Shown here: positions 1 to 63,908 of the stretch, piece by piece
Numbering within the stretch: the first letter of the stretch is position 1
Layout of the letters: each line of letters begins with the position of its first letter
Made by a program: the position numbers and the translations under genes
The notes under the pieces: model-generated
The model's input: the letters and a program-made list of their open reading frames with translations, nothing else
Told to the model about the DNA's origin: nothing
Databases searched by the model: none
From: Semisulcospira habei
Lineage: Eukaryota > Mollusca > Gastropoda > Semisulcospiridae
Length of the DNA: 64,000 nt
Direction of reading: 5' to 3'
Assembly: GCA_036245525.1 (NCBI GenBank)
Contig: BTPG01000005.1
Coordinates: forward strand, 130,145,820 to 130,209,819

Positions 1-115
1 GTGGTCTCAGCAAGAGGCATAGATCCTCATGAGCCCCCGCAGTCGCGGGGGCTCATGAGGATCTATGCCTCTTGCAGTTAGGTCACGTTCACTTTTTCTC
101 AGTGAAGAGGTTAGT
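1..115. mobile_element. PAL-A palindromic MITE, right part (left end outside window)
   Basis: A perfect hairpin fills 10-75: two 31-base arms (10-40 and 45-75) around the loop AGTC. The left arm reads GCAAGAGGCATAGATCCTCA then TGAGCCCCCGC. The right flank ends near 115 in a decayed form (GTGAAGAGGTTAG) of the usual terminus AAGGGGTTAA. This arm recurs about 40 times in the window and defines the family. There is no coding potential; the 97-residue frame across it is incidental. Confidence 0.85.
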
Positions 116-257
116 ACCACACGGCAGAGACCAACACACTTCAGTTTTTACTACGGGCTTCGTCTATACTGAACAATCTTCGCGCAAAGATCCCGACCCC
201 CTGGCACTTTCTTTTATCAGAAGTTTCATGAAAATCAGTGGGAACAGATCTCTGCCA

Positions 258-323
258 ACAAGAGGCATAGATTCTCATGAGCCCCTGCAGTCGCAGGGTC
301 CCATGAGAATCTATACGTCTTGC
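258..323. repeat. PAL-A hairpin
   Basis: A 66-base palindrome with the PAL-A arm but GATTCTCATG on the left and CATGAGAATC on the right, where the family norm is GATCCTCATG/CATGAGGATC. The change is paired across the stem. The right arm has one extra mismatch (TACGTCTT). Confidence 0.8.
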
Positions 324-432
324 AGTTATAAGGTGTTTGGAGAAACCCAGATAAGTACAACATAAACGTCTGTATATTGCAGGCGGATTAGAGACATTCA
401 GAACTGAGATGTGAATGGTGCCGAGGTATGAC

Positions 433-499
433 AGCCAGATGCATAGATCCTCGCATGTCCCTAGTTTGCAAGGGGCTCATGAGAATCTTGCAGATGGAA
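433..499. repeat. Degraded PAL-A hairpin
   Basis: Recognisable arm pieces (GCATAGATCCTC, GGGGCTCATGAG, TCTTGCAGATGG) remain, but pairing is interrupted. An old copy. Confidence 0.55.
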
Positions 500-1283
500 A
501 GATCTTGCAGAGGGACCGAGTGCGTATTAATAACAGATGTAAACAAAACCACGAAAATGCCTGTGCGGAACTGAAGTGCATGCAACAACAAAAGACGGTA
601 GACCGTCTGCATTGGCGACATTTTATCGTGTGGGTGTATAATGTGTGTGATAGGTTTATTCACGGCGCAGATTTACAGACATTACTTGTCAGTGCAGTGC
701 AATATAACATATTTCTCAGCGCGTGTTTTTCATATGATATCATCTTATTTTTCGACAAAAGTACGCGATTTAATTGAGATAACACATAGGATTTGGTAGC
801 CCTAAAATAGGTGTCCTAAAATGCGTGATTGGCGCTTTGTCGCTTCTCGTGATTGAATTTTTTTTATCCTCGTGATCCGTGAAAAGTTCCTCGTGAAACG
901 TGAAAGCCCAAGTACGCAAAATCTTCGTGATCTGTGAACACATCCTGGTTATTTCGTGAAACGTAAAAAGTCTGTTTCTACGCTGTAAATTTCACTCAGA
1001 AATTACCGCCCCCCCCCCCCCCCACACACACACACACACTACCTCCCCCGTCGTTTGATTTCCCTGGCAGTTGGAGAATGTTGTGAAAGTTGTCTCCATT
1101 CACCGGCCATCAGCATATACGGAAATATTGCGATCTATTAACCCTTTACTGCCTGGTATAGGTCGCTTAAATGATGAAAAACTGCTGCTTTTATAATCAT
1201 AAACTGGGGCCATCCCTGACAGTAAAAACCGCAATTAATATGACACGCCGGCTGGGTGAGCAACCGTGCAACCCAATGATAGG
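500..1283. other. Intergenic stretch, no gene seen
   Basis: Reading frames are short and interrupted. 835-970 holds loosely repeated phrases of the form TCGTGAAACGTGAAA. 1008-1040 is a C run followed by (CA)n. At 1139 the phrase TTAACCCTTTACTGCC resembles the left tip of a PAL-type element without a matching right tip. Confidence 0.5.
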
Positions 1284-1347
1284 TCAAGGGTGGTGCCGGA
1301 ATAGCTTGGCGCCTCTTGGCGCCAAGCTATTCTGGCACTACCCTTGA
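1284..1347. repeat. PAL-B hairpin
   Basis: Arms TCAAGGGTGGTGCCGGAATA-GCTTGGCGCC and the matching right arm flank the loop TCTT. Two mismatches interrupt the stem. First clear member of the PAL-B family, defined by the core AGCTTGGCGCC...GGCGCCAAGCT. Confidence 0.85.
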
Positions 1348-1376
1348 TTTAGCCGCCCACCCTCCCCCACTCTCCA

Positions 1377-1424
1377 TCTCTCTCTCTCCCCCCCCCACCC
1401 CCCCCCCACCCCCTCCCTCCTCCC
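1377..1424. repeat. CT/C-rich low-complexity tract
   Basis: TCTCTCTC grading into C runs broken by A. The 72-residue frame over it (proline and serine rich) is a composition artefact. Confidence 0.8.
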
Positions 1425-1661
1425 CCCACGTATGTTCATCAAGTAACAGTTTGTTCCAGACGGTATTCAGAAACAAACCAAAGCCTACAAAGTTACAGCC
1501 TAGCACGTGTGCGGCCGTCACGGCTGACTGGTAATGAGGTCAGCACGCGCGAGGGGCTGTCTGCACGTGCAACAGGTCATCGCTCTCTTTCGTCTGCACC
1601 AACAATTACAGGCTGGGCCTGAATAATCTCCCCCGAGATGCAAATAAACCTTGTTCATGCG

Positions 1662-1693
1662 AACAAGAGGCATAGACTATATACCTCTTGCAG
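1662..1693. repeat. PAL-A hairpin with centre deleted
   Basis: CAAGAGGCATAGA meets TATACCTCTTGC directly, so only the outer 12-13 bases of each arm remain. This looks like a central deletion of a PAL-A palindrome. Confidence 0.65.
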
Positions 1694-3310: not shown

Positions 3311-5549
<2,239 letters not shown>

Positions 5550-5748
5550 CCTTTATAAACCGTAAAGCTAATAAAATGCAAAGAAGAAACATGTAAAAAA
5601 TAAAAAAGAAGGTGAACACGCTCTGAAAGAATGACCACACAGCCTACAGTTTACTAGATTTTCGGTTTTCATCGTTTTTCACATAGACAAACAGACAATA
5701 GGGACAGTTCAATACTTATCTTTTCGAGGGAAATGGTAAGGAAGGTGT

Positions 5749-5790
5749 TAATTCATTCGAGACGTGCCGCATCTGGATACGCGGCTTTAT
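5749..5790. repeat. PAL-C left arm remnant
   Basis: TTCATTCGAGACGTGCCGCA then TCTGGATACGCGGC matches the left arm of PAL-C. No right arm follows. Confidence 0.6.
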
Positions 5791-5943
5791 TAAGGTACTT
5801 CCATACCACGTAAGAATGTGGCCGTAGTTTTGGAGACATTTCAAATGTTATTTGATTTATTAACTCATTTACACTTAATGATTTCTGCAACTTTGGGAAG
5901 CGAATATAAAGACCGTGTACCAGATATGGGGGATGCATCGTAA

Positions 5944-5990
5944 AGCTTGGCGCCAAGCTAATCTGGCACAACACGAACTATTGTGTCCGA
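5944..5990. repeat. PAL-B fragment
   Basis: AGCTTGGCGCCAAGCTAATC retains the palindrome centre with no loop, followed by right-arm-like TCTGGCACAAC. The left arm is missing. Confidence 0.65.
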
Positions 5991-6115
5991 TCTTTCTACC
6001 GCTGCCGCGTCTAAAGAACGAATAGGCCACACAGATCTTTCGTTTGGAGCTAGTCGTAAAAGCCTCAACAGTCGTCGCTAATTCATGTCCGATTCAGCAA
6101 CCCCAGAATTACTTT

Positions 6116-6194
6116 TTAACAGTTCGAGACGAGCTGCATTCCGACACGCGGCTTATGCTGCGTGGCCGAATGCTGCACGTCTCTAATGAGTTAA
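6116..6194. mobile_element. PAL-C palindromic MITE
   Basis: A 79-base element bounded by TTAA (6116-6119 and 6191-6194). Nearly the whole length is one stem: TTCGAGACGAGCTGCATTCC pairs with the right arm GAATGCTGCACGTCTCTAA. GCGGCTTATGC forms the turn. Confidence 0.8.
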
Positions 6195-8900: not shown

Positions 8901-10486
8901 CTAATGGTCAAAACTTAAGGGCCAAACCACTTTTTTGTGTCATTGTTTATCGTCGCAAGTACGCTAATAAAATACAATGTTCTTTCGATCAAAATTGGTT
9001 AAAAGTTGACCTTAGACAGTCTACTGTACAGGGAACAATAGACAACAATTCATCAATTTCCACGAACGTGTCAAATGCACGTGAAACATCGTCAGTTTAT
9101 GTGAAAAGCTGTGCTATATTGGCAAGCGTACCAAAGGCAGGGAGGTGGAAAAACTCGGTAAAGACGTGATGCACGTGCTAAAGGGGTCAGTCGTAAACAC
9201 TGAGCACCTCTATTTCGCTAAATATACCGGTACGGTAGGGGCATAATCGTCACTTTCCTAACCATGCCACCACGACGAAGTCTAACGCCAGTAGATCAAA
9301 GCCGGGCGCTAGCATGGCTGCAGGATGGAATTTCCGGACGACAAGTTGGGAGACGTCTTGGGGTGTCCCATTCAATGATCCAGAGGCTGCTGGCACGATT
9401 CCAAGAAACTGGAAGGGCAGAACAACAACCCTGCTCAGGACGCCCGCGCTGGACCAGCAGAAGGGAGGACAGATATCTCTGTGTGGCGGCTCTGCGCGAC
9501 CGAACTGTCACGTCGACCACTCTGCGGCGTTAACTGACTCGGATGCAAGCTGCAAACGTTAACGTCAGCAGAAGCACAGTCTGCCGACGTCTGCGCGAAA
9601 TTGGCCTGACTTCAAGCAGAGCAGCAGTGAGAATACCCCTCTCCCCAGCTCATCGCAGAGCCCGGGTTGCCTGGTGTCGTCAACATGTGAGGTGGAACAG
9701 ACTCCAGTGGACTCAGGTTCTGTTTACTGATGAGTCACGGTTTACTGTGTCCTTCAACGCCGGCAGGGTGAGGGTCTGGAGACGCCAGGGCGAGCGATTT
9801 ACGGATGGATGCGTCCAAGACGTGGATCGCTACGGAGGAAGCTCAGTCATGGTCTGGGCAGGCTTCAGCAAGGAAGGCAGGACCCCCCTCCACGTCATCC
9901 GAGGCACCCTGACTGGACTGCGCTATCGGGACGAGATTGTGCAGCCCCTCACCCATAGGCGACAATGCTGTTCTGTAGGACGACAACGCTCGACCTCATC
10001 GCGCCCGTGTGGTTGATGAGTACCTTGATCAACGGAGCATCATGAGGATGGAGTGGCCAGCTCGTTCACCTGATCTGGCTCCCATCGAGCACCTCTGGGA
10101 CGTGCTGGGGCAACGTGTTGTCAGCAACCACCCCCCACCTCAAGGCGTCCCACAGCTGACTCAGTTCCTGCATCAAGAATGGAAAGCGATCCCACATGTT
10201 CTCCGAAACCTGGTGAACTCCATGCGTCAACGCTGCATTGAATGCTTGGCTGCAAACGGTGGGTACACACGCTACTGACTGGACCAGTCTTGTGTGACTT
10301 CAAATGAGGGGTGGGTGAACATTCTAACGTACTGCTGTTATTACAATTGCCTGATTTACTCAAAACTTAAATGAAATTGTTACTGAATACATTAGCAAAG
10401 TACTGACTCCAAGTATTGTTACTTTATTTGTGTGGTGTTGTCGGTGCGTCTGCGATAAAAAGTGGCCCATAAGTTTTGACCATTAG
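8901..10486 (+). mobile_element. Tc1-like DNA transposon, full length
   Basis: Terminal inverted repeats CTAATGGTCAAAACTTAAGG (8901-8920) and, at the right, a matching TAAGTTTTGACCATTAG ending at 10486. TA dinucleotides flank both ends (8899-8900 and 10487-10488), the target duplication expected for Tc1/mariner. The inner TIR continues as GGGCCAAACCACTTTTT against AAAAAGTGGCCC. Total length 1586, usual for Tc1. It contains one broken transposase gene. Confidence 0.92.
9264..10278 (+). pseudogene. Tc1-family transposase (DDE), broken
   Basis: A cut-and-paste transposase that would bind its element's inverted repeats. The N-terminus has a helix-turn-helix region around QVGRRLGVSHSMIQRLLARF (residues about 27-46). 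A frameshift near 9530 moves reading to the frame of MQAANVNVSRSTVCRRLREI. The first catalytic aspartate lies in LFTDESRF (about 9720). A second frameshift occurs near 9950, and a stop TAG at 9976 immediately precedes the DDNARPHRARV block holding the second aspartate, probably a mutated CAG. The glutamate lies in SPDLAPIEHLWD (10066-10101). All catalytic residues are recognisable, but no continuous protein can be made. Confidence 0.92.
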
Positions 10487-10849: not shown

Positions 10850-11437
10850 GTGTTTTTGGCGAAATTATCTCTCGAACAATTCCTGTATGTACTAACCTTT
10901 CAAAAATCAAAGTATTTTTGTCAAGCGTTGTTCAGAATTTTAATTTAATTTATGTTATGTTAAAGTCCTCTTTGATACAAAATAAATTTATTATATAACA
11001 ACAACAAAAAATCAATCACGCATTGTCCTAATTGTTAAAATTCTAACCACTATAATGAGTTACTTAGTTATTTGGGTTTAGAGTACCATTACGCATAAAT
11101 CTGAAGACACATTTCAGCACCATCTGTGCTTGTTATACTTTGTCGACACACCTAATGAACTTTAACAGCAGTTTGGACACGCAGCGAAAGCACACACGTA
11201 ATCGCACTTATTTATTCTGCGCAGCCGTGTCAATCTATTTTTAGCTGTTTCTCATACTGAAAGCGGTGTATTTCTAGAACGGAGTGGAGTCATTGTCAGG
11301 TTACTTGATATAAAAACGACGTGTGCTGAACTGGATTGTCCTGTGTCTAAATGAACCATACCTAGACCTGTGTGTAGCGTTTCGTAACCATCTGTTACAG
11401 AAGTGTATCTTTGTACAGTTATGACGGTAGGCGACTA
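10848..11437. other. AT-rich stretch, no gene seen
   Basis: No coding signal. The last part (11421-11437) holds GACGGTAGGCGACTAAGGCC, the apparent founder sequence of the minisatellite that follows. Confidence 0.45.
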
Positions 11438-11840
11438 AGGCCATCTCACAGCAGACCAATATAATGAGGCACACAAACACTAAGGCCATCTCACAGCAGA
11501 CCAATATAATGAGGCACACAAACACTAAGGCCATCTCACAGCAGACCAATATAATGAGGCACACAAACACTAAGGCCATCTCACAGCAGACCAATATAAT
11601 GAGGCACACAAACACTAAGGCCATCTCACAGCAGACCAATATAATGAGGCACACAAACACTAAGGCCATCTCACAGAAGACCAATATAATGAGGCACACA
11701 AACACTAAGGCCATCTCACAGCAGACCAATATAATGAGGCACACAAACACTAAGGCCATCTCACAGCAGACCAATATAATGAGGCACACAAACACTAAGG
11801 CCATCTCACAGCAGACCAATATAATGAGGCACACAAACAG
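11438..11840. repeat. 45-bp minisatellite, about nine copies
   Basis: Unit AAGGCCATCTCACAGCAGAC then CAATATAATGAGGCACACAAACACT. Copies are almost identical; one has CAGAAGACC for CAGCAGACC (about 11677). Because 45 is divisible by 3 and the unit lacks stops in one frame per strand, long repetitive open frames appear on both strands. There is no evidence of expression. Near identity implies recent expansion. The phrase GACTAAGGCCATCTCAC also occurs once at 62600-62616. Confidence 0.95.
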
Positions 11841-11915: not shown

Positions 11916-12030
11916 TTAACCCCTTGACTGCTGCTGACGATACCGGTCGGCGGAAAATACGCGTAACTACGACACTATCTAACTACGTAACTACGCGTCT
12001 TTTACGCCGAACGGTATCGTCAGTAGCTAG
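11916..12030. mobile_element. PAL-E palindromic MITE
   Basis: Starts TTAACCCCTTGACTGCTGC. Left arm GACGATACCG pairs with CGGTATCGTC near 12010; inner arms TACGCGTAACTACG and CGTAACTACGCGTC pair next. The right outer end is decayed (CAAGCGGTCGG) and lacks TTAA. Confidence 0.7.
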
Positions 12031-12267
12031 CAACCAAGCGGTCGGTCAAAGTTTTTGAGAAAACTGATCACTCCAAAAACATTCCAAAAATTGTCTTCTT
12101 AAAGCTCCCCTCACTCTTTTACTCTCTGCATTACGTGACAGGAAGAACGGTTTCCCTTTTATGTGGAGTTTTAGTGGGCAGACAATGGATACAAACTGCA
12201 TCTTTGAAAGATTGAAGCCGCGCATAACTGTCCTTCAGCGACCAGACGAACACTTTTATCCCCGTCT

Positions 12268-12329
12268 GCAAGAGGCATAGATCCTCATGAGCCCTGCAAT
12301 GCAGGGGCACATGAGGATCTATGCCTCTA
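12268..12329. repeat. PAL-A hairpin
   Basis: GCAAGAGGCATAGATCCTCA arm pairs with TGAGGATCTATGCCTCTAG. The centre is GAGCCCTGCAATGCAGGGGCAC, shortened relative to the usual CCCCCGC centre. Confidence 0.8.
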
Positions 12330-12670
12330 GTATGAAATAGTTCACCTTGCTTCCTGCGTTGGAAGACAAAAGGGCGGTTTAAAGCGATCTGTAACGGCTT
12401 AGTTTGGCGATGAAGATAATCGGTTTGTGACCAGACCAGAAACGGAGCCAATCTTACACGGATACACGTACACTGAGCATGTCAGCCAGGAATTTGTGTA
12501 AAGAACACAGACCTAAACGGACGTAACCAGCGAGAGGAACCTATTACCTTTATAGACATAGTGTAGACCTGTTTACTACGACTGTAGTAACAGATCTTCA
12601 GACGACTAGATGTAGGGCCTCACTCTTCCAAACATGTGCCAAGCCACACTGAATGTGTTGTGTCGTTGTT

Positions 12671-12671
12671 T

Positions 12672-12738
<67 letters not shown>

Positions 12739-12980
12739 GCAACAACAGCAACAACAACTACTCAGTACTACTACAAATAAACTATGTAGTGTCGTTGTAA
12801 CAAAGAAAAGAAAACCAAATAGTTATGAGCATCGTACAAAAACCAAAAACTATGCAGTGTCGTAAAAAAGGAAAATTCTGCAGTGTCGTAAAAATGGAAA
12901 ATTCTGTAGTGTCGTAAAAAAAAAATTCTGCAGTGTCCTATAAAAAAGAGAAATTTCTGCAGTGTCGTAAAAAAGAAAAG
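12671..12980. repeat. (AAC)n microsatellite and degenerate TGTCGTAAAAA repeats
   Basis: 12671-12760 is (AAC)n with a few AGC variants. 12785-12980 holds about six irregular copies of a unit of about 28-40 bases containing GCAGTGTCGTAAAAA and AAATTCT. Confidence 0.85.
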
Positions 12981-13233
12981 AAAATATACGCAGAGACAAA
13001 TTACGGCCGTCAACTATTTTTAAACAAAAGGACTGGCAACATTATCGATGGTAGTCAATTTTCAAGGCTTTAACTTTAACTCTGACTTGGCAAGCGAGGC
13101 GTGCTATTCTGGAACAATTGTGTGAAAACCGGCCTTCCCAATCTCGTTTACCAACAGGCGATATAAGGAAAATCCGTTTTTAGCTGACTGCCGACTTTCA
13201 GTCAACGGAGGCATCGTCAAACCATGTGGTTAA

Positions 13234-13436
13234 TTAACCCTTTTTGGGTCGGTAGCGGTTAAGTGGCGATGCATAGGGGCCTGACGATGTTTGACTAAAT
13301 GCAAATCCGCTGCGCCACCGCGTGCGCGCCACCGCGTCACTTGCTCAAATCAGAATACATCGTCAGGCGCCTATGTCGCGATGATTCCGACATAAATCAT
13401 CGCGAGTAATACCGCTACCAACAGACAAAGGGTTAA
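13234..13436. mobile_element. PAL-D MITE containing a nested palindrome
   Basis: TTAA ends at 13234-13237 and 13433-13436 with TTAACCCTTTTTGGGTCGGT at the left and CAGACAAAGGGTTAA at the right. The PAL-D centre (TCGCGATGATTCC then AATCATCGCGA) survives at about 13377-13404. Inside the left arm lies a second inverted pair, CATAGGGGCCTGACGATGT and ACATCGTCAGGCGCCTATG, apparently a later insertion. Confidence 0.75.
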
Positions 13437-15917: not shown

Positions 15918-16134
15918 TTAACCCGTTCAGTGCTAGCTGACGAAGACTGTGTTTCTGCAGTCTTCGTTAATTCAACACAAACAAAACCATAGCTGTCCCA
16001 GGGACATGGATTCAAAGTGGTGCCAGCAAGAGGCATAGATCCTCATGAGCCCCCGCAACTGCGCAGGGCTCATGAGGATTTATACCTCGTACAGTTGGGT
16101 GGTGTGCAAATTTTCTCGGCACTGAACGGGTTAA
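15918..16134. mobile_element. PAL-A MITE, complete, TTAACCCGTT type
   Basis: TTAA at both ends (15918 and 16131). Termini TTAACCCGTTCAGTGC and GCACTGAACGGGTTAA form inverted repeats of about 16 bases. The unpaired left segment contains CTGTGTTTCTGCAGTCTTCG. The hairpin at 16026-16092 has lost perfect pairing at its right base (ACCTCGTAC). This copy is read in the opposite sense to the one at 40.3 kb. Confidence 0.92.
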
Positions 16135-18488: not shown

Positions 18489-18747
18489 GGATAACTCGTC
18501 ATGTAACAAAGCGATGCCGGCAAGATTCAAATATGGCACCAGTTGCCTACACAGTCGCAATCCAGGCCACAAATGTGCCTGCCAAGCCTGAACATATGCA
18601 AAGCAAATCCCAACAAAGCTTTAACCCATTCAACCCTGACGCACTATAGCAGGAGATCCATCTCCTGCAACAGGTGCATAGTCGTTAGATGACGCCTCCA
18701 AAATTTGGCAAATACGTGCTTCGGGCTGAATGAGTTAAAAGGGCCGA

Positions 18748-18903
18748 TCAACACAGTTTATTACATTTTCAAAATGGGCATACAAAGAAGAAAACAATTC
18801 GCTACATATATTTTATTAGCCAGAAGAGAGGCAACTGAATTGTTTTCTGGTCTGAGTGTCCATTTTGAATAGGATTAAACCCCAAAATGTAATAAACTGT
18901 TTT
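18748..18903. repeat. Foldback repeat, type Q
   Basis: ACAGTTTATTACATTTT at 18758 is inverted as AAAATGTAATAAACTGT at 18885. Further in, GAAAACAATTC pairs with GAATTGTTTTC and CAAAATGG with CCATTTTG. About 20 bases are missing from the left arm. The flank after 18905 (TAAGCGCATTTCTTTCTTTG) recurs near 25600, 45760 and 56085. Confidence 0.7.
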
Positions 18904-19356: not shown

Positions 19357-19383
19357 GAATCGAGGGAGACAACCACTGTGCGA
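19357..19383. repeat. PAL-H arm fragment
   Basis: GAATCGAGGGAGACAACCAC matches the right arm of the PAL-H palindromes at 55.6-55.8 kb. No second arm here. Confidence 0.6.
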
Positions 19384-19739: not shown

Positions 19740-19954
19740 TTAACCCTTTTCATCCTGAAACACTACTGCTTGAAATAAGTTTGCCTGTGATAGTTCAAGG
19801 GTGGTGCCAGAATAGCTTGGCGCCTGAGGCGCCAAGCTATTCTGGCGCCACACTTGAATTGAAATGGTTGATCTGTCTCCTAACTTGTAATGTAGCCTCC
19901 ACAAGACAATAAGCAAATTTTAAAAAAAATCAGCTTCAGGATGTAATGGGTTAA
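19740..19954. mobile_element. PAL-B MITE, TTAACCCTTT type
   Basis: TTAA at 19740 and 19951, with CCCTTTTCATCCTGAA at the left and TTCAGGATGTAATGGG at the right. Hairpin 19793-19860: GTGGTGCCAGAATAGCTTGG with loop TGA. Length 215. Confidence 0.88.
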
Positions 19955-22581: not shown

Positions 22582-22662
22582 TTAACACTTTCGAGACGTG
22601 TCGCATCCGGATTCGCGGCTTTACGCCGCGAATCCGTTTGCGACACGTCTCGAAAGTGTTAA
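22582..22662. mobile_element. PAL-C palindromic MITE, nearly perfect
   Basis: 81 bases, TTAA to TTAA, one continuous hairpin. TTAACACTTTCGAGACGTGT is answered by ACACGTCTCGAAAGTGTTAA. The tip differs from other PAL-C copies (CACTTTCG for CTCATTCG) and the difference is present in both arms. TTAACACTT is also close to known piggyBac-type termini. Confidence 0.92.
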
Positions 22663-23038: not shown

Positions 23039-23253
23039 TTAACCCTTTTAGCCCCGGATCCCTACATCAGGAGACGGATTGATCATGATAATTCAAGGGT
23101 AGTGCCAGATGAGCTTGGCGCCTGAATTCGCCAAGCTCATCTGGCACTACCCTTGAATTATCATGATCAATCCATCTCCTACAACTGGTACATAGTCGTT
23201 AGGCAACACCTCCAACAATTGGAGAAATGGGACCTTGGGGCTAAAAGGGTTAA
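23039..23253. mobile_element. PAL-B MITE, complete, with covarying stem
   Basis: TTAACCCTTTTAGCCCC at 23039 and GGGGCTAAAAGGGTTAA ending 23253 are perfect inverted ends. The hairpin spans 23069-23180, arms of about 54 bases. Relative to other copies it has GATGAGC/GCTCATC for GATTAGC/GCTAATC and TTGATCATG/CATGATCAA for TCGACCATG/CATGGTCGA: differences that stay paired. The loop has one asymmetric deletion (CTGAATTC). Confidence 0.93.
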
Positions 23254-24655: not shown

Positions 24656-24721
24656 GCAAGAGGCATAGATGCCCATGAGCCCCGGCGTTAGCCGGGGCTC
24701 ATGGGCATCTATGCCTCTTGC
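24656..24721. repeat. PAL-A hairpin with covarying stem
   Basis: A perfect stem with GATGCCCATGAG on the left and CTCATGGGCATC on the right, against GATCCTCATGAG/CTCATGAGGATC in most copies. The centre CCCCGGCGTTAGCCGGGG is changed but still self-complementary. Confidence 0.92.
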
Positions 24722-30302: not shown

Positions 30303-30526
30303 TTAACCCTTATCATTCGGAATACACCAGTGTGTGAAATAAGTTTGACTAAAATAATTCAAGGGTAGTGCCAGAATAGCTTGGCGCCTCTAGGCGTCAA
30401 GCTATTCTGGCACCACCCTTGAACTAAAGCCATTGGTCTCTATCCTTACCTGTAAGTACTATAATGTAGCTTGCATATGGCAGTGTACAAATGTGAAGCT
30501 TTTAGCCTCAGTATGATATGGGTTAA
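30303..30526. mobile_element. PAL-B MITE, subtype with TTAACCCTTATCATTCGG end
   Basis: TTAA at 30303 and 30523. Left ACCAGTGTGTGAAATAAGTT and right AGCTTTTAGCCTCAGTATGA segments are shared with copies at 47.5, 59.5 and 61.9 kb, defining a subtype. Hairpin 30357-30425, loop TCTA, one stem mismatch (GGCGTCAAGC). Confidence 0.88.
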
Positions 30527-37949: not shown

Positions 37950-38029
37950 TTAACTCATTCGAGACGTGCCGCCTCCGAATACGCGGCATAAGCCGCGTAT
38001 CCGGAAACGGCACGTCTCGAATGAGTTAA
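37950..38029. mobile_element. PAL-C palindromic MITE
   Basis: TTAACTCATTCGAGACGTGC at the left, GCACGTCTCGAATGAGTTAA at the right, 80 bases, stem throughout except CTCCGAAT against ATCCGGAAA. Turn GCGGCATAAGCCGC. Confidence 0.93.
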
Positions 38030-43499: not shown

Positions 43500-43718
43500 T
43501 TAACCCATTTAACCCCACGGACTCGTTTCCCAAATGTTCGAGGCGTCGCCTCACGACGATGTGCCAGCCGCACTGAGGAGATGGCTCGATCGTGATAATT
43601 CAAGGGTAGTGCCAGATTAGCTTGGCGCGGTCAGGCGCCAAGCTAATCTGGCACTACCCTTGAATTATCATGGTCGAGCCATCTCCTGCTGCAGTGCGTC
43701 GGGGCTGTTTGGGGTTAA
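43500..43718. mobile_element. PAL-B MITE, complete
   Basis: TTAA at 43500 and 43715; TTAACCCATTTAACCCC against GGGGCTGTTTGGGGTTAA. The hairpin region is 43576-43688: GGAGATGGCTCGATCGTGAT pairs with ATCATGGTCGAGCCATCTCC. GGCTCGA/TCGAGCC is a paired departure from GGATCGA/TCGATCC. The core has one asymmetry (GGCGCGG). Confidence 0.9.
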
Positions 43719-43768: not shown

Positions 43769-45445
<1,677 letters not shown>

Positions 45446-45915: not shown

Positions 45916-46143
45916 CAACGAATAGTAGTAACGCCCCATTCAAAACCTCAAGAACGAGACAGGCAACACAAACAGCGGCCGCTAAATCAGTGTATTAGCG
46001 AAAAATCCATCCCGTGAAAAGTCTGATGGCTGCGAGCAGATACCTGCTTATCTCGCCCTGCCCCCTCTCCCTGGGCCAGACGTGAGGTGATACGGCAGTC
46101 CGCAGGCCCTTCATCCGGCCCCGCTCTTGCCCTCCCTCCATCT

Positions 46144-46209
46144 ACAAGAGGCATAGATTATCATGATCCCCTGCAGCCGCAACGACTCATAAAAATCTAA
46201 ACCTCTTGC
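46144..46209. repeat. PAL-A hairpin, imperfect
   Basis: CAAGAGGCATAGATTATCAT and CATAAAAATCTAAACCTCTTG pair with several mismatches. Confidence 0.65.
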
Positions 46210-46274
46210 TACCAATGATCGGTTTCATTTTACATCTGTTGGCTTCTCCGAGTTTCAACCTGGCCCTTTAGTCT

Positions 46275-46333
46275 GCAAGAGTAATAGATTCTCATGAGCC
46301 CCTGCGGGGCTCATGAGAATCTATACCTCTTGC
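46275..46333. repeat. PAL-A hairpin with short centre
   Basis: AGATTCTCATGAGCCCC-TGC-GGGGCTCATGAGAATCT is a perfect inner stem; the outer GCAAGAGTAA/ATACCTCTTGC has one mismatch. The AATTC-type paired change GATTCTC/GAGAATC is present again. Confidence 0.85.
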
Positions 46334-46530
46334 TGCGATGGGCATGTCCCATTTACCTCTATGTTGGCTGCTCGGAGTTTCACAGCACATGATACAAGGT
46401 GGGACACAACAAACAGACGAAGCAGGTAGAGATTTGATCAAAAACAATCACCCCCGCTGACACAGGTATGGTAAACCTGCACCCAGACAAGAGAAAATAC
46501 GGCTAGTGCCGATGGTGTCTAATGGTGCCA

Positions 46531-47863: not shown

Positions 47864-48078
47864 TTAACTCATTCTACCCCAGACACACCAGAGGAAGATA
47901 AGGTTCGACCATGATAGTTCAAGGGTGATGCCAGAATAGCTTGGCGCCTATGGGCGCCAAGCTATTCTGGCATCACCCTTGAACTATCATGGTCGATCTG
48001 TGTCCTGCACTGCAATGCAGTCTTCAGAGGACAACGGCACAATTTAAGGATTTCGGTGTTGGGGTAGAATGAGTTTTA
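47864..48078. mobile_element. PAL-B MITE, TTAACTCATTC type
   Basis: TTAACTCATTCTACCCC left, GGGGTAGAATGAGTTTTAA right. The hairpin 47905-47996 is nearly perfect (GGTTCGACCATGATAGTTCA start), with GTGATGCC/GGCATCAC replacing GGTAGTGCC/GGCACTACC in both arms. Loop TATG. Confidence 0.92.
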
Positions 48079-48200: not shown

Positions 48201-48402
48201 TTAACCCGTTCAGTGCCAGCTGACGCAGACTGTGTTTCCTGCAATCTTTGTTAGTTCAGCACCCAAAAATCCCTACATGATGTGGCCGGAACATGGATTT
48301 AAAGTGGTGTCAGCAAGAAGCATAGATTTTTATGAGTCCCCGCAATTGCATACGTCTTGCAGTTTGGTGGTGTTCCGATTTTCTCGGCACTGAACGGGTT
48401 AA
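48201..48402. mobile_element. PAL-A MITE with right hairpin arm deleted
   Basis: TTAACCCGTTCAGTGCC and GGCACTGAACGGGTTAA are perfect 17-base inverted ends. The hairpin (48312-48360) keeps the left arm GCAAGAAGCATAGATTTTTA and jumps from CCCCGCAATTG to CATACGTCTTGC. Confidence 0.9.
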
Positions 48403-48657: not shown

Positions 48658-48723
48658 GCAAAAGTCGAAGAATCTCATGAGCCCCCGCAGGTGCGGGGGC
48701 TCATGAGGTTCTTCGACTCTTGC
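48658..48723. repeat. PAL-A hairpin, strongly altered but paired stem
   Basis: GCAAAAGTCGAAGAATCTCA left and TGAGGTTCTTCGACTCTTGC right: seven or more positions differ from the family norm (GGCATAGATCC), nearly all matched by the opposite arm. Centre CCCCCGCAGGTGCGGGGG. Confidence 0.93.
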
Positions 48724-49605: not shown

Positions 49606-49796
49606 TTAACCCCTTCCCTGCCACTGTACGTACATTTATGTTTCTGGAATCTGTGTTCATTCAACGACCGAAAGCCGCAACCGTCCAAGAAACATGGATA
49701 CAAACTGGTCTCAGCAAGAGGCATAGATCCTCGTGAGCCCCCGCAGTCTCGTGCAGTTGGATCGTGTTCACTTTTTCTCGGTAGAGAAGGGGTTAA
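49606..49796. mobile_element. PAL-A MITE, TTAACCCCTT subtype, right arm deleted
   Basis: TTAACCCCTTCCCTGCC left, GTAGAGAAGGGGTTAA right. The hairpin retains only the left arm (49714-49745) before TCGTGCAGTTGG. Its right TTAA (49793-49796) is also the left TTAA of the next element. Confidence 0.88.
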
Positions 49797-49858
49797 CACA
49801 TTCCAGACGAGCTGCATGTTGCCGCATGTCCAGATCCGGCACGTCTGGAATGTGTGAA
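49793..49858. mobile_element. PAL-C MITE abutting the preceding PAL-A
   Basis: TTAACACATTCCAGACGAGC left, GGCACGTCTGGAATGTGTGA right: CACATTCCAGACG pairs with CGTCTGGAATGTG, where other copies have CTCATTCGAGACG. Shares its TTAA with the PAL-A element on its left, so one inserted at the edge of the other. Confidence 0.82.
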
Positions 49859-50027
49859 ATCCTGATGACTAAAAATGCTCCCTTCAGCAGCCCCAGCCCA
49901 GTCTCTACCCTCGCAAGTAAAAAGTATTCGCGACAACGTCGGCCTTAGTAGGCTACGAGCAAAGCTGCACCCGAGGTTGGTCCCATTACCTTTTGCTTAC
50001 TGCTTTCACAAATCCAAGAAACGTTGG

Positions 50028-50202
50028 TTAACTCATTCTGCCCGCGACACACCACAGCAAGATATGGCTCGACCATGATAGTTCAAAGGTGGTGGCAGAA
50101 TAGCTTGGCGCCTATAGGCGATCTGTCTCCTGAATTGCAATGCAGTCCTCAGAGGATAACTCCAAAATGTGGGTATTCCGTACCTCGGGCACAATGAGTT
50201 AA
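50028..50202. mobile_element. PAL-B MITE with right arm deleted
   Basis: TTAACTCATTCTGCCCG left, CGGGCACAATGAGTTAA right, nearly paired. Left arm GCTCGACCATGATAGTTCAA and centre GGCGCCTATAGGCG present; the rest of the right arm is missing, jumping to ATCTGTCTCC. Confidence 0.85.
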
Positions 50203-50329
50203 AAGGTTTCGATCCCTATGCCAGCAAAAGACAAATTCTTCTGAACCCCTGCAACAGACTTCTTACCACGTGCAAAAAGCACAGATCGTCATCAGCCGCT
50301 GCAGGAAGCATACATTCTGATGACGCTCT

Positions 50330-50394
50330 GCAAGAGGCGTAGATTCTCATGAGCCCCTGCATCGCAGGGGCCCATGAGAATCTATGCCTCTTGC
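50330..50394. repeat. PAL-A hairpin
   Basis: GCAAGAGGCGTAGATTCTCA / TGAGAATCTATGCCTCTTGC with centre GAGCCCCTGCATCGCAGGGGCCC. Short PAL-A-like relics precede it at 50220-50325. Confidence 0.88.
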
Positions 50395-50942
50395 ATAAGG
50401 ATCTGTTTCGTTCATACCGTGACTACGATATGACCTATGCGATCTCCGCACCACCACCCCCTAAAAACGCCAGTCGACGTCGGCCTCAGCTCCGTAATCG
50501 GCAGGAACTTACACAATCTTATCCGGACACGTCCAGAGTTTCACAAATCCAGTTTTCTCTCAAAATGCACATCCGGCTAATGTGTCTCAACCAATCGCAA
50601 CAAGTGTCTGTCGGTCATTTATTCCTTGGAATAATTTGTACGAATCAGAATTTTGTCTAGTGCCTTCTTGGATGGTTAGATCGCGGAACAAACGAAAAAG
50701 ATAAACGAGTGAGCGAAAAAGAACGAGCGAAAAACTGGATGAATGATTATAGAGATCTCATCAAAAGATTAATTCATCGTGATTTTAATTATGCTACAGC
50801 ATGGAATAAATCAAATTGCGCGTAGATTGAAATTCTGCACTTTAAAAAAAAAAGAGAAGCAAACTGCATTTCATCTGTAGGTGGTCAGTTTGGATGCATA
50901 CTTTACCAGAGAAGCTGTCTCTCGTATTTCTGTTATTAAATT
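50395..50942. other. AT-rich stretch, no gene seen
   Basis: Nothing recognised. Confidence 0.4.
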
Positions 50943-51074
50943 GACCAAATAGCTAGGCTTAAAGAACATGGGACTAAAAAGGGACATACATCCTCATGAG
51001 CCCCCGCGATCGCGGGGGCTCATGAGAATTTATGTCTCTTGCTGCTGGATGGCGTTCGCCTTGCTCCGGCAGGT
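50943..51074. mobile_element. PAL-A MITE, TTAACCCCTT subtype, left end lost
   Basis: CTCATGAGCCCCCGCG-ATCGCGGGGGCTCATGAG is a perfect core. Right end CTCCGGCAGGTTAGGGGTTAA at 51054-51074 matches the subtype terminus. The left TTAA is not found. Confidence 0.78.
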
Positions 51075-51417
51075 TAGGGGTTAATATTTCATACACGTCC
51101 TTAGTCCGTCTTTCGTGTCTGCTGCATGGCAAAGACTAACTCATATTTAGTCAGTTTAATCGTGAAGTTTGAATGCCACGTCTTAACATGTGAAGACTTT
51201 TCCAACTCTCTTCTTCTCCTTTCGCTAGGCACGGGAGTTCCCTGCAAGAAAAGCAGTGATGACACCTCTCCTACGCGTGCCTACTCACATGACACGTGAA
51301 ATGATGGGCAGTAAGGTCTTAAATAACGCAGGACAAACATTGAGCGCCCTTTTTAAGAGGATAAAACATCAACACTCGAGGCCTGCCGTGGAGAAGGCAA
51401 CTTTAATAAATCAGAAA
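51075..51417. other. Stretch with nothing recognised
   Basis: A 78-codon frame at 51256 has no recognised domain and runs into the next PAL-B element. Confidence 0.4.
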
Positions 51418-51882: not shown

Positions 51883-52200
51883 TGCCGGTCTGTGATTTTG
51901 GACCTTGCGGCTTAGCATCTGTAAGGTCCAAAACCGCAGACCAACACACATTTTGCTTAACTCATTCTACCCCAACACCGAAATCCCCAAAGTTTGCCGT
52001 TGTCCTCTGAAGACTGCTTTGCATTGCAGGACACAGATCGACCATGATAGTTCAAGGTGATGCCAGAATAGCTTGGCGCCCATAGGCGCCAAGCTATTCT
52101 GGCATCACCCTTGAACTATCATGGTCGATCCTTATCTTGCTGTGGTGTGTCTGGGGTAGAATGAGTTAAAAGTCGTAAGGTCCAAAATCCCAGATCAGCA
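51883..52200. repeat. PAL-G palindrome interrupted by a PAL-B element
   Basis: GTGCCGGTCTGTGATTTTGG and AAAACCGCAGACCAACAC form the PAL-G stem (51880-51950). A further GTAAGGTCCAAAATCCCAGA lies at 52171-52190, on the far side of the TTAA-bounded PAL-B at 51957-52169. Confidence 0.7.
51957..52169. mobile_element. PAL-B MITE, TTAACTCATTC type, nested
   Basis: TTAACTCATTCTACCCC left, GGGGTAGAATGAGTTAA right, a perfect 17-base inversion. Hairpin 52038-52128 lacks one G in the left arm (AAGGTGATGCC against GGCATCACCCTT). Loop CATA. Same subtype as the 47.9 kb copy but opposite orientation. Confidence 0.93.
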
Positions 52201-52310: not shown

Positions 52311-52533
52311 TTAACCCGTTCAGTGATAAGAAATTTTTAACACCACCCAACTGCAAGAGGTACTGATTCTCATGAGCCCCCGCAGTTGTGGGGCTCATGA
52401 GGATCTATGCCTCTTGTTGACACCACTTTGAATCCACGTTCCTGGGATGTCTATTGTTTTGTGTGTGCGTGTTGAAGTTAACCAAAATTGCAGAAACACA
52501 CACTGCGTCATGAGCTGGTAGGGAACGGGTTAA
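52311..52533. mobile_element. PAL-A MITE, TTAACCCGTT type
   Basis: TTAACCCGTTCAGTG left, AGGGAACGGGTTAA right. Hairpin 52353-52416 with GATTCTCATG left but CATGAGGATC right, a half-changed pair. Right segment has AAATTGCAGAAACACACACT. Confidence 0.88.
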
Positions 52534-52712: not shown

Positions 52713-53237
<525 letters not shown>

Positions 53238-53303
53238 GCAAGAGACATAGATTCTCATGAGCCCCTGCGAATGCAGGGGCTCATGAGAATCTATGTCTCT
53301 TGC
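53238..53303. repeat. PAL-A hairpin, perfect
   Basis: GCAAGAGACATAGATTCTCA exactly answered by TGAGAATCTATGTCTCTTGC; centre CCCCTGCGAATGCAGGGG. Three paired departures from the family norm (GACAT/ATGTC, GATTC/GAATC, CCTGC/GCAGG). Confidence 0.93.
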
Positions 53304-53416
53304 AGCTGTGTTCAGTAAACTCTCTGGATGGACTAAACAGAAGACCAAATTTGAACCACGAGGACGACTTACAAATTATGAGTCTGAGGCTGTAAAATGC
53401 GGCCGTCCTCTGATGG

Positions 53417-53480
53417 CAAGAGACATACATTCGCATGAGCCCCTGTGGCCGCATGGACTCATGAGAATCCACGTCTCTTG
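53417..53480. repeat. PAL-A hairpin, imperfect
   Basis: CAAGAGACATACATTCGCAT and ATGAGAATCCACGTCTCTTG; outer stem paired, centre CCCTGTGGCCGCATGG altered. Confidence 0.75.
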
Positions 53481-53521
53481 AAGATGTGACGGGATATCCG
53501 GCTGAGAGGAGGGGGGAGGGT

Positions 53522-53561
<40 letters not shown>

Positions 53562-54863: not shown

Positions 54864-54924
54864 GTTTAAAAGTCGGCCTTTCTAAGTTTTTTTCCTGCTA
54901 CATCAGAAAGGCCGACTTTTAAAC
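54864..54924. repeat. Palindrome type O
   Basis: GTTTAAAAGTCGGCCTTTCT pairs exactly with AGAAAGGCCGACTTTTAAAC around a T-rich 21-base loop. It directly adjoins the left inverted end of the larger element. Confidence 0.88.
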
Positions 54925-54979: not shown

Positions 54980-55128
54980 ATACTGACGAGCAAAGGAAAT
55001 GCGACATTTTCGGAACCATCGGAAACAATAAAGTGTTTCCGATGGTTCCGAAAATGGCGCTTTTTTTTTGAGGGGAGGGGGGGGGGGCGGGGGGGGGGGG
55101 GGGGGGGGGGGGGGCTCGCCAGTATATA
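54980..55128. repeat. PAL-I palindrome with poly-G tract in right arm
   Basis: ATACTGACGAGC pairs with GCTCGCCAGTAT; inner AATGCGACATTTTCGGAACC pairs with GGTTCCGAAAATGGCGC; turn TAAAG. The right arm contains TTTTTTTTGAGGGG followed by about 45 G (55071-55114) where the 20.7 kb copy has TTTCTTTTGCTC. Confidence 0.82.
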
Positions 55129-55593: not shown

Positions 55594-55660
55594 ACTGGTT
55601 GTCTCCCCCCGATTCGCTGCGCTGATCAGCGCAGCGCGGAATCGAGGGAAGACAACCAGT
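55594..55660. repeat. PAL-H palindrome
   Basis: ACTGGTTGTCTCCCCCCGAT and ATCGAGGGAAGACAACCAGT pair with a bulge; centre GCTGCGCTGATCAGCGCAGC is perfectly self-complementary. Confidence 0.88.
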
Positions 55661-55777: not shown

Positions 55778-55833
55778 CACACTGGTTGTCTCCCTCGATT
55801 CGCTACAGCGAATCGAGGGAGACAACCAGTGTG
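55778..55833. repeat. PAL-H palindrome, perfect
   Basis: CACACTGGTTGTCTCCCTCG then ATTCGCT, and the exact reverse complement through 55833, with a three-base turn. No mismatch in about 26 base pairs. Only 118 bases from the previous PAL-H. Confidence 0.93.
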
Positions 55834-56613
55834 AGTATATATATCACTATTAGTATAGTTGGAGCAGGAAATACAGACGAGCAAAGCTACCGACTGTCCG
55901 CTCTCTGACGCACAAGACTGAAATGGATACATTATGATAAAAGGTCGTCACAATTGCGCAGCAGGATCAGAACCACAACGGTGAAAGCCAAGTGAGTGGA
56001 CTGCAAAGGAATACCCAATAAAAAAAAAGAAACACGATAAGAAAGGTCAATTCAACCAAATGTACTGTGTTGTACTTGTCCTTTCTAAGCATATTTCTTT
56101 CTTTGTTCGAGCTTGGTTTTGAACCCAGAACTTGACCTGAGCATCATCAGAAGACTAAGAAATTTGTGACTCGATAGGTCAAAGAACAAACTTTGCGAAG
56201 ATGAACGAAGAAACATTCGTGTGCCAAAACGACGGTAAACTCCCATGAAAAAGTAGGTAATTAACCCTTCACAAGTACCAGCTTTACTGCCACTGTTTGT
56301 CAAAAACTTGGGGCAACAAGTGCAGACTTAAAACCCAAACTTATGTTCTGCGTACGAAGTACTTCTTCCACCTGCAGACAAAAACTGTTCAATCGTTTCT
56401 ATGGTATAATTATTTAGTGCTATGTGCGGGAGGCGGGTGATAGATCGACTGCAACAGCTCTCTGAGTGTTTAAAGATAACGCATGGGTAGACTAGCGCCT
56501 GCGTGTGAACCCTTGACTGAGCTATCCCCAACACTGACAAACGGTACATTTTTAACACCGCTGCTTTATGTAAATACCTTCTTCCACAATTGTAAACACA
56601 CGAGTACCAACAG
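55834..56613. other. Intergenic stretch with a type Q arm
   Basis: 56080-56130 (CTTTCTAAGCATATTTCTTT and CGAGCTTGGTTTT) matches the type Q arm of 25.6 and 45.76 kb. No gene seen. Confidence 0.5.
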
Positions 56614-56880
56614 AATTTCGATGGTCTTCGGTTTGACCATGAGAAATATCAACATAGTGAACCCAACAAGAGGCATAGATCTTCATGAGCCCCTGCAATT
56701 GCGGCGGCTCATGAAGATCTATGTCTCTTGCAGAGACCAAAATGGAACAGAATTTTGACGGTGTTTGGTTTTCGCATGAGAAACATCAACGTAATGAAAG
56801 CAGCAAGAGTCATAGATCTGAATGAGCCCCCGCAGTTGCGGGAGCTCATGAAGATCTATGCCTCTTGCAGAGGTAAAATG
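56614..56880. repeat. 137-bp tandem duplication, each unit with a PAL-A hairpin
   Basis: Unit 1 from 56614 (AATTTCGATGGTCTTCGGTT) and unit 2 from 56751 (AATTTTGACGGTGTTTGGTT) both continue with CATGAGAAATATCAAC or CATGAGAAACATCAAC, a PAL-A hairpin and CAGAG-AAAATGG. Hairpin 1 (56667-56730) has GATCTTCATG/CATGAAGATC paired; hairpin 2 (56803-56868) has GATCTGAATG against CATGAAGATC, unpaired there. The units have diverged since duplication. Confidence 0.82.
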
Positions 56881-60988: not shown

Positions 60989-61086
60989 AGTTTAAGGGTA
61001 GCGTCTGATTAGCTTGGCGCCTCCAGGCGCCAAGCTAATCAGACGCTACCCTTAAACCCTACCCTTAAACCCTACCCTTAAACTAT
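60989..61086. repeat. PAL-B hairpin with covarying stem and triplicated right arm tip
   Basis: GGTAGCGTCTGATTAGCTTG pairs with CAAGCTAATCAGACGCTACC; GCGTCTG/CAGACGC replaces GTGCCAG/CTGGCAC in both arms. The right tip repeats ACCCTTAAACCCT about three times (61049-61081), as by slippage. Confidence 0.9.
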
Positions 61087-61879: not shown

Positions 61880-62107
61880 TTAAACCTTATCAGTCGGAAT
61901 ACACCAGTGTGTGAAATAAGTTTGACTAAAATAGTTCAAGGGTAGTGCCAGAATAGCTTGGCGCCTCTAGGCGCCAAGCTATTCTGGCACCAATCTTGAA
62001 CTAAAGCCATTGGTCTATATCTTTATCTGTAAGTGCTATAATGTTACTTGCATATGGCAGTGTACAAAATTAATTTGAAGCTTTTAGCCTCAGTATGATA
62101 TGGGTTA
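61880..62107. mobile_element. PAL-B MITE, 30.3-kb subtype
   Basis: TTAAACCTTATCAGTCGGAA left, TATGATATGGGTTAA right. Hairpin 61932-62003, loop TCTA; outer right arm CACCAATCTTGAAC mismatched. Same orientation as the 30.3 kb copy. Confidence 0.9.
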
Positions 62108-62818
62108 AGGCGCGCAATCGGGTCAGATAATCTCAGACAATTAAACACGCAGAAGGTTTAATCTGCATCGCCGACAAAGCGATATACACACCGGCATAGA
62201 TGCGCCACTGGTTCTGAGAGCTGCGGCTTACGGTTATTACGCACACGTCTGATCAGTCATAAAACATGTGCTGGTCTTTAATTTTAGAGCTTACGGCAAG
62301 CACACACCAATGTTTATAACGTTGAAGAAAATAAAACAAATGGCGTGAAGTGGCTAGTGATTTGCTTTTGAGTACAGCTGTATATCTACAGATCTGACGC
62401 TCACTAGACTTTTAAATATAAAATGTTTGCTATGAATACTAATAATAATGATAATAATAATAACATCATCATCATCAGATGATGATGATGATGATTATCA
62501 TCTACGGGTTATCATCATCATCGTCATCAATATTTATTTACTTCTTCATGGGCAGCGCCCAAAAGACAACTTGCTATTAGAGTTTAACGCCGGGCAGGTG
62601 ACTAAGGCCATCTCACGGAGATAGCGCCAAACAGCTCGAGGGTACCTCGAGAACAGCACTGCTTCTGCTTATTAGCAGACTAGATCACCCATAAAAAAAA
62701 TAACCTGGCTCGTCTTCCAGGCGTGAGGCACATCTGGCACTACCAAAGAGCTCCTATTTCAATCACTACCACTTGCCTACATATGGTCGACCCATCTCAT
62801 CGAACCCATATACAGAGT
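62108..62818. other. Intergenic stretch with triplet repeats
   Basis: 62262-62300 holds a PAL-G arm fragment. 62437-62530 is (AAT)n/(ATC)n/(GAT)n, locally self-complementary (CATCATCATCATCAGATGAT). 62600-62616 repeats the minisatellite founder phrase from 11.43 kb. No gene seen. Confidence 0.5.
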
Positions 62819-63039
62819 TTAACCCCTTCCTCCTGACACTTGACGCTAGTACCTTCGTTTTGGAAATCTCTCTTCATTCAACGATCAAAAGCCACAAACG
62901 TCCACGTTAACATGGATAAAACAATTGTTTAAGCAAGAGACATAGATCCTCATGAGCCCCCGCGACAGCGGGGGCTCATGAGGATCTATGTCTCTTGCAG
63001 CTGGATCGTATGCACGTTTTCTCGCAGTGAAGGGGTTAA
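62819..63039. mobile_element. PAL-A MITE, TTAACCCCTT subtype, complete
   Basis: TTAACCCCTTCCTCC left, GCAGTGAAGGGGTTAA right. Hairpin 62933-62998 is perfect: GCAAGAGACATAGATCCTCA with TGAGGATCTATGTCTCTTGC, centre CCCCCGCGACAGCGGGGG. Left unpaired part TCATTCAACGATCAAAAGCC matches the 49.6 kb copy. Confidence 0.94.
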
Positions 63040-63179
63040 GTTAAAACGAGCGATTTCAGTCAGACACCTACCAGGCCAAAGACAGACACCAGACCAAAGA
63101 CAGACACAGACAAGACTGACAAAGAGGAACGCAAGTCACTTCTGGTAATCCTTCACTACTGAACCTCCCAGTTTTACCT

Positions 63180-63246
63180 GCAAGAGGCGTAGTGTATGAT
63201 AAGCCACTCCGACAGCAAGGGGCTCATGAGAATCTAAGCCTCTTGC
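63180..63246. repeat. PAL-A hairpin, diverged
   Basis: GCAAGAGGCGTAGTGTATGA and CATGAGAATCTAAGCCTCTTGC; centre CACTCCGACAGCAAGGGG. Confidence 0.7.
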
Positions 63247-63403
63247 TGTGAGAGAGTTCGGCTCCACTACTTTTAACCCTCAAGACTGAGGAGGTACGTC
63301 GAGTTTTGACAGAGGCCTGGATAAACAGGGGGAGAAGAATTCCTGTTGTAATTCCCTTACGTAAAGCGTGATGAGGAAAGTAAGACTTGCGAGTAATGTA
63401 ATT

Positions 63404-63464
63404 TGGGGGGGGGGGGGGGGGGGGGGGAGGGGGAGAGAGGGGGGTGGAGGGGGGGGGGGGGGGA
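63404..63464. repeat. G-rich low-complexity tract
   Basis: G runs broken by A and T over about 60 bases. Confidence 0.92.
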
Positions 63465-63504
63465 AAGGAGGGCCGGGTGCGTGTTTTCTGCAACGGGCGC
63501 CTCG

Positions 63505-63640
63505 TTAACCCTTTCAAGCCTAACAGTCCCTAAAACAAGGTATGCGGCATCGAGCGTGCAAGTTCAAGGGTGGTGCCAGATTAGCTTGGCGCCTGTAGGC
63601 GCCAAGCTATTCTGGCACCACCCTTGAACTTGCATGCTCG
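63505..63640. mobile_element. PAL-B MITE, left end and hairpin
   Basis: TTAACCCTTTCAAGCC left. The hairpin 63551-63640 has arms of about 42 bases ending CGAGCGTGCAAGTTCAAGG / CCTTGAACTTGCATGCTCG. One arm carries GATTAGC and the other GCTATTC, so the two subtypes of the core are mixed in one stem. The right end is unclear and may have been cut by the next element. Confidence 0.82.
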
Positions 63641-63703
63641 GTCTTGTCTGTCGTCTGAACTTGTAGTGCAGCCTTTAGGCGCAAAACTATTTTGGCACAA
63701 CCT

Positions 63704-63908
63704 TTAACCCGTTCAGTGCCGAGAAAATTTGAACACTACCCAACTGCATGAGGTATAGATCCTCATGAGGGGTTCACGAGGATCTAAGCCTCTTACCGAG
63801 ACCACTTTGAATCCATGTTTCTGGGACATCTAAGTTTTTTTGGGTCTTGAATTAACGAAGATTGCAGAAACACAACTCATCTGCGTCAGCTGGCTCTGAA
63901 CGGGTTAA
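63704..63908. mobile_element. PAL-A MITE, TTAACCCGTT type, hairpin centre deleted
   Basis: TTAACCCGTTCAGTGCCGAG left, GGCTCTGAACGGGTTAA right. The stem GGTATAGATCCTCATGAGG meets GTTCACGAGGATCTAAGCC, so the CCCCCGC centre is missing. Right segment GATTGCAGAAACACAACTCA as in related copies. Confidence 0.9.

Follow-up and report, generated by a model that had tools for sequence, protein, structure and literature searches.

Within the 64,000 nucleotides of Semisulcospira habei DNA considered here (contig BTPG01000005.1; C5:130145820-130209819 of a 1.98-Gb assembly in 507 contigs; hereafter the window), short palindromic elements bounded by TTAA are packed closely together; how the hairpins inside them keep their two arms alike is the question taken up here. 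The reading that we favor, at a probability of about 0.65, is that the elements are TTAA-inserting piggyBac miniature inverted-repeat transposable elements (MITEs) moved in trans, and that their hairpin arms are kept alike by template switching.

The window contains 329 TTAA sites. A mechanical scan for inverted 14-base tips bounded by TTAA (at most three mismatches, spacing of 50 to 2,000 bp) returned 19 pairs, against none in 19 of 20 dinucleotide shuffles and one in the remaining shuffle. Single elements of three families, termed H1, H2, and the 80-bp palindrome, accounted for 11 pairs; four were long pairings joining tips of different elements (11916-13436, 18621-19954, 22582-24296, and 49606-51084), one joined two 80-bp copies (5748-6194), two were repeats outside all three families (36970-37097 and 54866-54922), and one (60992-61055) was an H2 hairpin. 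The last was rejected as a TTAA element: its TTAA lies inside a changed hairpin arm and is not a target site. Searches with profiles built from intact copies (E ≤ 1e-3) found 74 family copies (40 H1, 25 H2, and nine 80-bp palindromes) covering 10,465 bp, or 16.4% of the window, in agreement with the roughly 70 copies estimated by the initial annotation. The five palindrome families that it described became three large ones plus two kinds of palindrome without TTAA at their printed edges. All eight elements that it offered as running from TTAA to TTAA do so (they are among those in Table 1); the tips of 43500-43718 pair only when shifted, and those of 62819-63039 pair imperfectly.

Among the 74 copies, 33 extended from end to end, and these were bounded by TTAA on both sides in 19 cases, as expected of a TTAA target-site duplication, on one side in 11, and on neither side in three. 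The single elements printed were 80 to 224 bp long, noncoding, and too small for a transposase. Their terminal inverted repeats, 14-base tips with 0 to 3 mismatches, lie within the 12 to 19 bp of piggyBac/TTAA MITEs; tip sequences include CCCGTTCAGTGCC, CTCATTCTACCCC, and CTCATTCGAGACG. Genome-wide, an exact 17-base tip was found at both ends at 57 places (reversed control, 0). Near-consensus hairpins were about five times denser in the window than in the genome (five matches versus 0.97 expected), marking the window as rich in them.

We conclude that the elements are likely nonautonomous piggyBac-type MITEs, as had been proposed from the letters of the window: TTAA at both ends, tips of the C(C/T)C type, piggyBac transposases in the genome with tips of that class, and a match to an unfilled site all point this way. 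Of 1,058 first-look transposase candidates, 116 were scored matches to piggyBac (best E = 9.7e-93), many with open frames, and a search of 14 control genomes was positive in 0/14. Named relatives of one of these transposases include proteins of Littorina saxatilis, Mercenaria mercenaria, and Nucella lapillus. TTAA-bounded tips with 0 to 3 mismatches in 14 surrounded 17 of 30 fetched transposase loci, mainly of the types CCCATATAAGCCTG, CTCTTACCAGTTC, CTCTTTGACACCGTAG, and CCCAYTAWTGCCCA; the comparison of terminal repeats that had been suggested upheld a shared tip class and not an identical sequence. Four elements gave matches spanning an unfilled site. Two (L056 and L016) were set aside as matching their own locus, and one (window 48201) reached 69%. 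In the fourth, a 79-bp element (L017:2622-2700) sits at a TTAA inside an H2 copy, and other H2 copies are uninterrupted there at 77 to 79% identity, a paralogous comparison of one case. At locus L011, an H2 element and an H1 element adjoin at one TTAA, which ends the former and starts the latter. Both arrangements are the outcome expected of cut-and-paste movement at TTAA.

Nine autonomous piggyBac copies of this genome (among L025 to L053) resemble the MITEs in their TTAA boundaries and in tips such as CCCATATAAGCCTG, CCCAYTAWTGCCCA, and CTCTTACCAGTTC. They carry PF13843 and, unlike the MITEs, have no inner hairpin with an arm score of at least 14. By eye, the autonomous copies at L025, L026, L027, L031, L043, L050, and L053 have a short inverted repeat around GTCCCATTTTTGGGAC beside one tip. 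Two piggyBac transposase copies, at L036 and L037, have what looks like one and the same H2 hairpin insertion nearby.

The closest published counterparts are the CMITEs of the coral Acropora (Wang et al. 2010, PMC2872659), described as small, TTAA-flanked, nonautonomous, and tied to piggyBac-like transposons, with tandem copies and with conservation between families that is higher in the internal region than in the terminal repeats. Of our tips, CCCTTT fits the CC[C/T]T terminal motif given there; CCCGTT, CCCATT, CCCCTT, CTCATT, and CACTTT do not strictly, and local transposase-bearing copies also begin with CCCAT or CTCTT. When the window and the loci searched were compared with the published 60-bp CMITE internal consensus, no match was significant, the best being 12 bases long at E = 0.65, and, as a difference from our elements, neither "hairpin" nor "palindrome" occurs in the main text of that paper. 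CMITE-like internal conservation, unexplained in that text as well, recurred in 17 H2 copies: identity between copies was 0.86 to 0.91 in the core arms, 0.66 to 0.68 in the tips, 0.54 to 0.56 in the body, and 0.42 in the loop, with some bias toward conservation possible because the copies were picked with a model containing the hairpin. The initial annotation had inferred that unrelated hairpins were captured by one class of transposon end. H1 and H2 hairpins do differ while their tips are of one class, but hairpins of one family are homologous, and those of H2 exceed both body and tips in conservation. Retention of the hairpin, rather than its capture, is the thing to explain.

H1 arms are 31 nt long and enclose a loop that is usually 4 nt; H2 arms can extend to 50 nt or beyond. 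In both families, the left and right arms of one hairpin were closer to each other than to the arms of other copies (H1, distance 3.66 versus 5.20, 50 of 61 hairpins; H2, 2.30 versus 4.23, 27 of 36 hairpins; 0/10,000 permutations each; the 11 H1 and nine H2 hairpins omitted lack a 4-base gap). Both sides had changed at nine of 34 H2 pairs, giving 29 cells versus 8.2 in shuffles and 0 to 1 when the arms were slid. We then considered the whole genome, in which the exact consensus arm has 30,172 matches, by fixing one changed arm and leaving its partner free except for the last five bases. Relative to that count, arms with A to T at site 20 amount to 0.6% (179/30,172) and arms with G to C at site 22 to 1.1%. 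The figures for the two sites rest on the first 100 of 179 and of 337 matches, respectively, which gave 96 hairpins after removal of four second-strand rows (site 20) and 94 once four rows of that kind and two nearly identical duplicates were removed (site 22); the per-site controls leave out hairpins with insertions or deletions (17/96 and 15/94). Among the matches listed, the partner arm had also changed at site 20 in 11/96 hairpins (10/79 ungapped), whereas for other bases elsewhere in the arm the mean was 1.05/79 and the maximum was 4 (polymorphic sites 8 and 9 omitted). At site 22, the partner had changed in 39/94 hairpins among those listed (37/79 ungapped and two gapped, judged by eye), compared with a control mean of 1.35/79 and a maximum of 5.

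The loops also varied. Within one body orientation, H1 loops differed between copies at 0.42 of sites (0.50 to 0.54 if orientation is ignored), compared with 0.063 of sites in the free, unselected arm of another sample; the loop diversity of that other sample is without 18 of 100 listed rows, and the loop count, transcribed by hand, is without nine of 100. Among the 91 loops listed, 39 were AACT (30) or GACT (9) and 16 were the reverse complements of these, AGTT (13) or AGTC (3), so that loops run in both directions relative to one body orientation. AGTT was commoner than the one-step intermediates AGCT (3) and AATT (7), and other double transitions numbered 0 or 1; the next commonest double mutant was GAAT (5). 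Deletions of at least 4 nt affected the hairpin in 11/20 aligned H1 copies, and eight of them spanned its center.

In the mechanism that we propose, piggyBac transposases would move the elements in trans, with precise insertion at TTAA; the transposases of this genome would be the ones acting on these elements. At replication, one hairpin arm would sometimes template the other, and a mutation in one arm would thereby be erased or passed to its partner. The same process could invert the loop, and the hairpin center would be prone to deletion. Such copying would help a hairpin to stay palindromic in old copies with decayed bodies. Arm-to-arm copying of the hairpin is likely; template switching, rather than another form of such copying, would be its means, acting in place and not solely in source copies. 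Template switching is reported to homogenize short inverted repeats in yeast (PMC8604942) and in RNA hairpins (PMC8794818), with spacer inversion as a named product (PMC8604942). H1 and H2 share with those repeats homogenized arms, multiple paired changes, and inversion of the spacer, here the loop, although inherited subfamilies account for part of the homogenization. They differ in that those repeats lie in genes and RNA genes (the stem "transpos" is absent from both main texts), whereas ours belong to a very abundant mobile element. Among the papers listed in capped searches, judged from titles and the beginnings of abstracts, none joins template switching with MITE hairpins; PMC7584159 contains both terms.

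The most credible competitor, which we rate as a real if lesser possibility, places all of the change in source copies: a few active elements with perfect hairpins would evolve by slow compensatory change under selection for transposition, and insertions would then decay neutrally with their pairing inherited. H2 subfamilies, each with its own tips and paired states, are as this account expects, as are the better conservation of arms than of bodies and the separate hairpin class described below. It sits less easily with the bidirectional loops and with the 11 co-changed site-20 hairpins, which we retrieved along with seven one-arm cases. These 11 have ten loop types. Their long-side bodies score 0.55 to 0.79 against the H1 consensus (L065 at background, L069 and L072 weak), and L064, L066, and L068 by eye have a CCCCTTC-type body like that of 49606-49796. 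Of the 55 body-to-body comparisons among them, only L064-L066 (0.87) exceeds the background 95th percentile of 0.82; by this measure the other bodies are no closer than background, which is weak evidence because background is high (mean, 0.71). A variant private to one locus is likewise difficult for inherited pairing: across the 1.98 Gb, the exact 26-base form of the hairpin at 24656 is matched once forward and once in reverse, and both matches are arms of that hairpin, although mutated relatives would escape exact matching.

Several observations weigh against copying in place by template switching or against the piggyBac connection on which our reading draws. Of the three variants tested genome-wide, one was private and two were not: there are four more single-arm matches elsewhere to the 60991 variant, and the 48658 variant occurs at one more locus. 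Part of the pairing is thus inherited, and these two variants were discarded as proof that copying occurs in place. Derived states confined to a single hairpin were found in both arms in three cases versus one arm in 24 for H1, and in three versus 25 for H2. L064 and L066, perhaps with L067, may be one lineage, having the A8 state in common and loops that resemble each other. The almost fourfold gap in co-change between sites 20 and 22 indicates that site 22 may include a subfamily. Among the loops, the double mutant GAAT also reaches 5, and CpG decay (AGTC to AGTT, GACT to AACT) gives part of the variation. No transposase element with exact H1, H2, or 80-bp tips was found in the 30 loci fetched, and 0/74 MITE copies matched any of the nine autonomous elements (E ≤ 0.01, repeat-filtered). 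Finally, unbiased arm copying leaves the better conservation of arms than of bodies unexplained, so that source-copy constraint or exchange of hairpins is needed as well.

Such exchange, by ectopic conversion between copies or independent movement of the hairpin, would carry whole hairpins into diverged bodies and would account for the conserved arms; as the explanation of the paired arms we consider it doubtful. The 30,172 consensus arms are possible donors, and near-consensus hairpins, that of L065 included, are flanked by sequence whose similarity to the H1 body is at background or close to it. However, loops ought to move with the arms, yet they are diverse, and many hairpin-only copies form a distinct sequence class: T16 is present in both arms in 13/35 of them versus 0/26 body copies (6/67, intermediate, left out), and T29 in both arms in 12/35, a share that may reflect decay because T29 lies within a CpG. 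Direct repeats of at least eight bases adjoined 4/35 hairpin-only copies, about as at random places (9%), which also weakens the idea that these copies are solo insertions with target duplications. By eye, an 18-base direct repeat adjoins the L065 hairpin. In the window, hairpin-only H1 copies, several of them T16/T29, lie in pairs or short tandem arrays (46085-46420, 50271-50361, 53160-53530, and 56609-56872) with 137-bp and 29-bp periods. Equally speculative is an extension of our own reading, in which arm copying at the fork and exchange between copies would together make the hairpin a self-correcting DNA module that outlives its transposon, passes between unrelated bodies, and is the lasting unit.

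Function of the hairpin as RNA, microRNA-like or double-stranded, with the stem kept by selection, is improbable. Long stable stems with compensatory changes are as expected of a selected RNA stem, but G·T mismatches were not in excess over A·C mismatches (25 versus 29 in 26 body-oriented H1 copies) and no Rfam family reached its cutoff within the window. An assembly or sequencing artifact, conceivable since palindromes are difficult to sequence, is the least probable explanation, given that the arms of other copies have many mismatches and that the paired changes are scattered across chromosomes.

Template switching in TTAA-inserting MITEs would bear on why many MITEs are palindromic and on how long stems outlast mutation. 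With about 30,000 exact-arm matches, a single assembly suffices to measure how often arms are copied, loops inverted, and centers deleted. The reading also counsels caution, in that paired stem changes, usually taken to prove RNA function, can arise from replication alone.

Table 1. Elements and hairpins of the three TTAA-associated families in the window (window coordinates).
Feature	Coordinates	Strand	Remarks
H1 element, TTAA at both ends	15918..16134	+	tips CCCGTTCAGTGC; hairpin 16026-16092
H1 element, TTAA-bounded	48201..48402	+	deletion adjoining hairpin center
H1 element, TTAA-bounded	63704..63908	-	deletion spanning hairpin center
H1-type element, CCCCTTC tips, TTAA-bounded	62819..63039	+	hairpin 62933-62998, arms identical
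H1-type element, TTAA-bounded	49606..49796	+	tips CCCCTTCCCTGCCA; hairpin center deleted
H1 element, TTAA at both ends	52311..52533	-	hairpin 52353-52417
H1 hairpin	24656..24721	.	31-nt arms match, three changes; exact 26-base variant genome-wide only in these two arms
H1 hairpin, T16/T29 class	53238..53303	.	arms identical; H1 body not recognizable
H1 hairpin	48658..48723	-	four paired changes versus consensus and two one-arm changes
H2 element, TTAA-bounded	23039..23253	-	tips CCCTTTTAGCCCC; 52-nt hairpin arms, one mismatch
H2 element, TTAA-bounded	43500..43718	+	53-nt hairpin arms
H2 element, TTAA-bounded	51957..52169	+	tips CTCATTCTACCCCA, same at both ends
H2 element, TTAA-bounded	19740..19954	-	tips CCCATTACATCCTG / CCCTTTTCATCCTG
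H2 element, TTAA-bounded	30303..30526	-	tips CCCATATCATACTG / CCCTTATCATTCGG
H2 element, TTAA-bounded	50028..50202	-	most of one hairpin arm deleted
H2 element, almost full length	47864..48075	-	44-nt hairpin arms, zero mismatches
H2 hairpin	60991..61056	.	identical arms, five changes versus consensus; TTAA belongs to arm
80-bp palindromic element, TTAA-bounded	22582..22662	+	CACTTT tips
80-bp palindromic element, TTAA-bounded	37950..38029	+	CTCATT tips

The 80-bp family recalls MADE1, which is mariner-related. MADE1 (hsa-mir-548) is likewise a very short, nearly fully palindromic MITE, and in humans it is tied to microRNAs (PMC1784062); here, the Rfam comparison is the one result bearing on such a link. 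Next to the H2 hairpin at 60991, positions 61046-61083 hold about three tandem 13-base units that repeat the edge of the adjoining hairpin, a pattern that could result from slippage or template switching.

Other repeats share the window. One long palindrome family, GAGCAAAAG...GGAAACACT, has edges without TTAA and occurs at 20711-20796 and 54997-55064 and also at L017 2502-2578. A second palindrome, CACACTGGTTGTCTCCCTCGATTCGCT, likewise has edges without TTAA, with two copies about 120 bp apart (55594-55660 and 55778-55833). By eye, a frame at 9534-10016 resembles a Tc1/IS630-type transposase, and frames at 3439-5558, 26475-29030, 32658-35790, 41076-42377, and 43838-45283 resemble non-LTR (long terminal repeat) reverse transcriptase/endonuclease. 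Nine near-identical 45-bp tandem units occupy 11434-11839.

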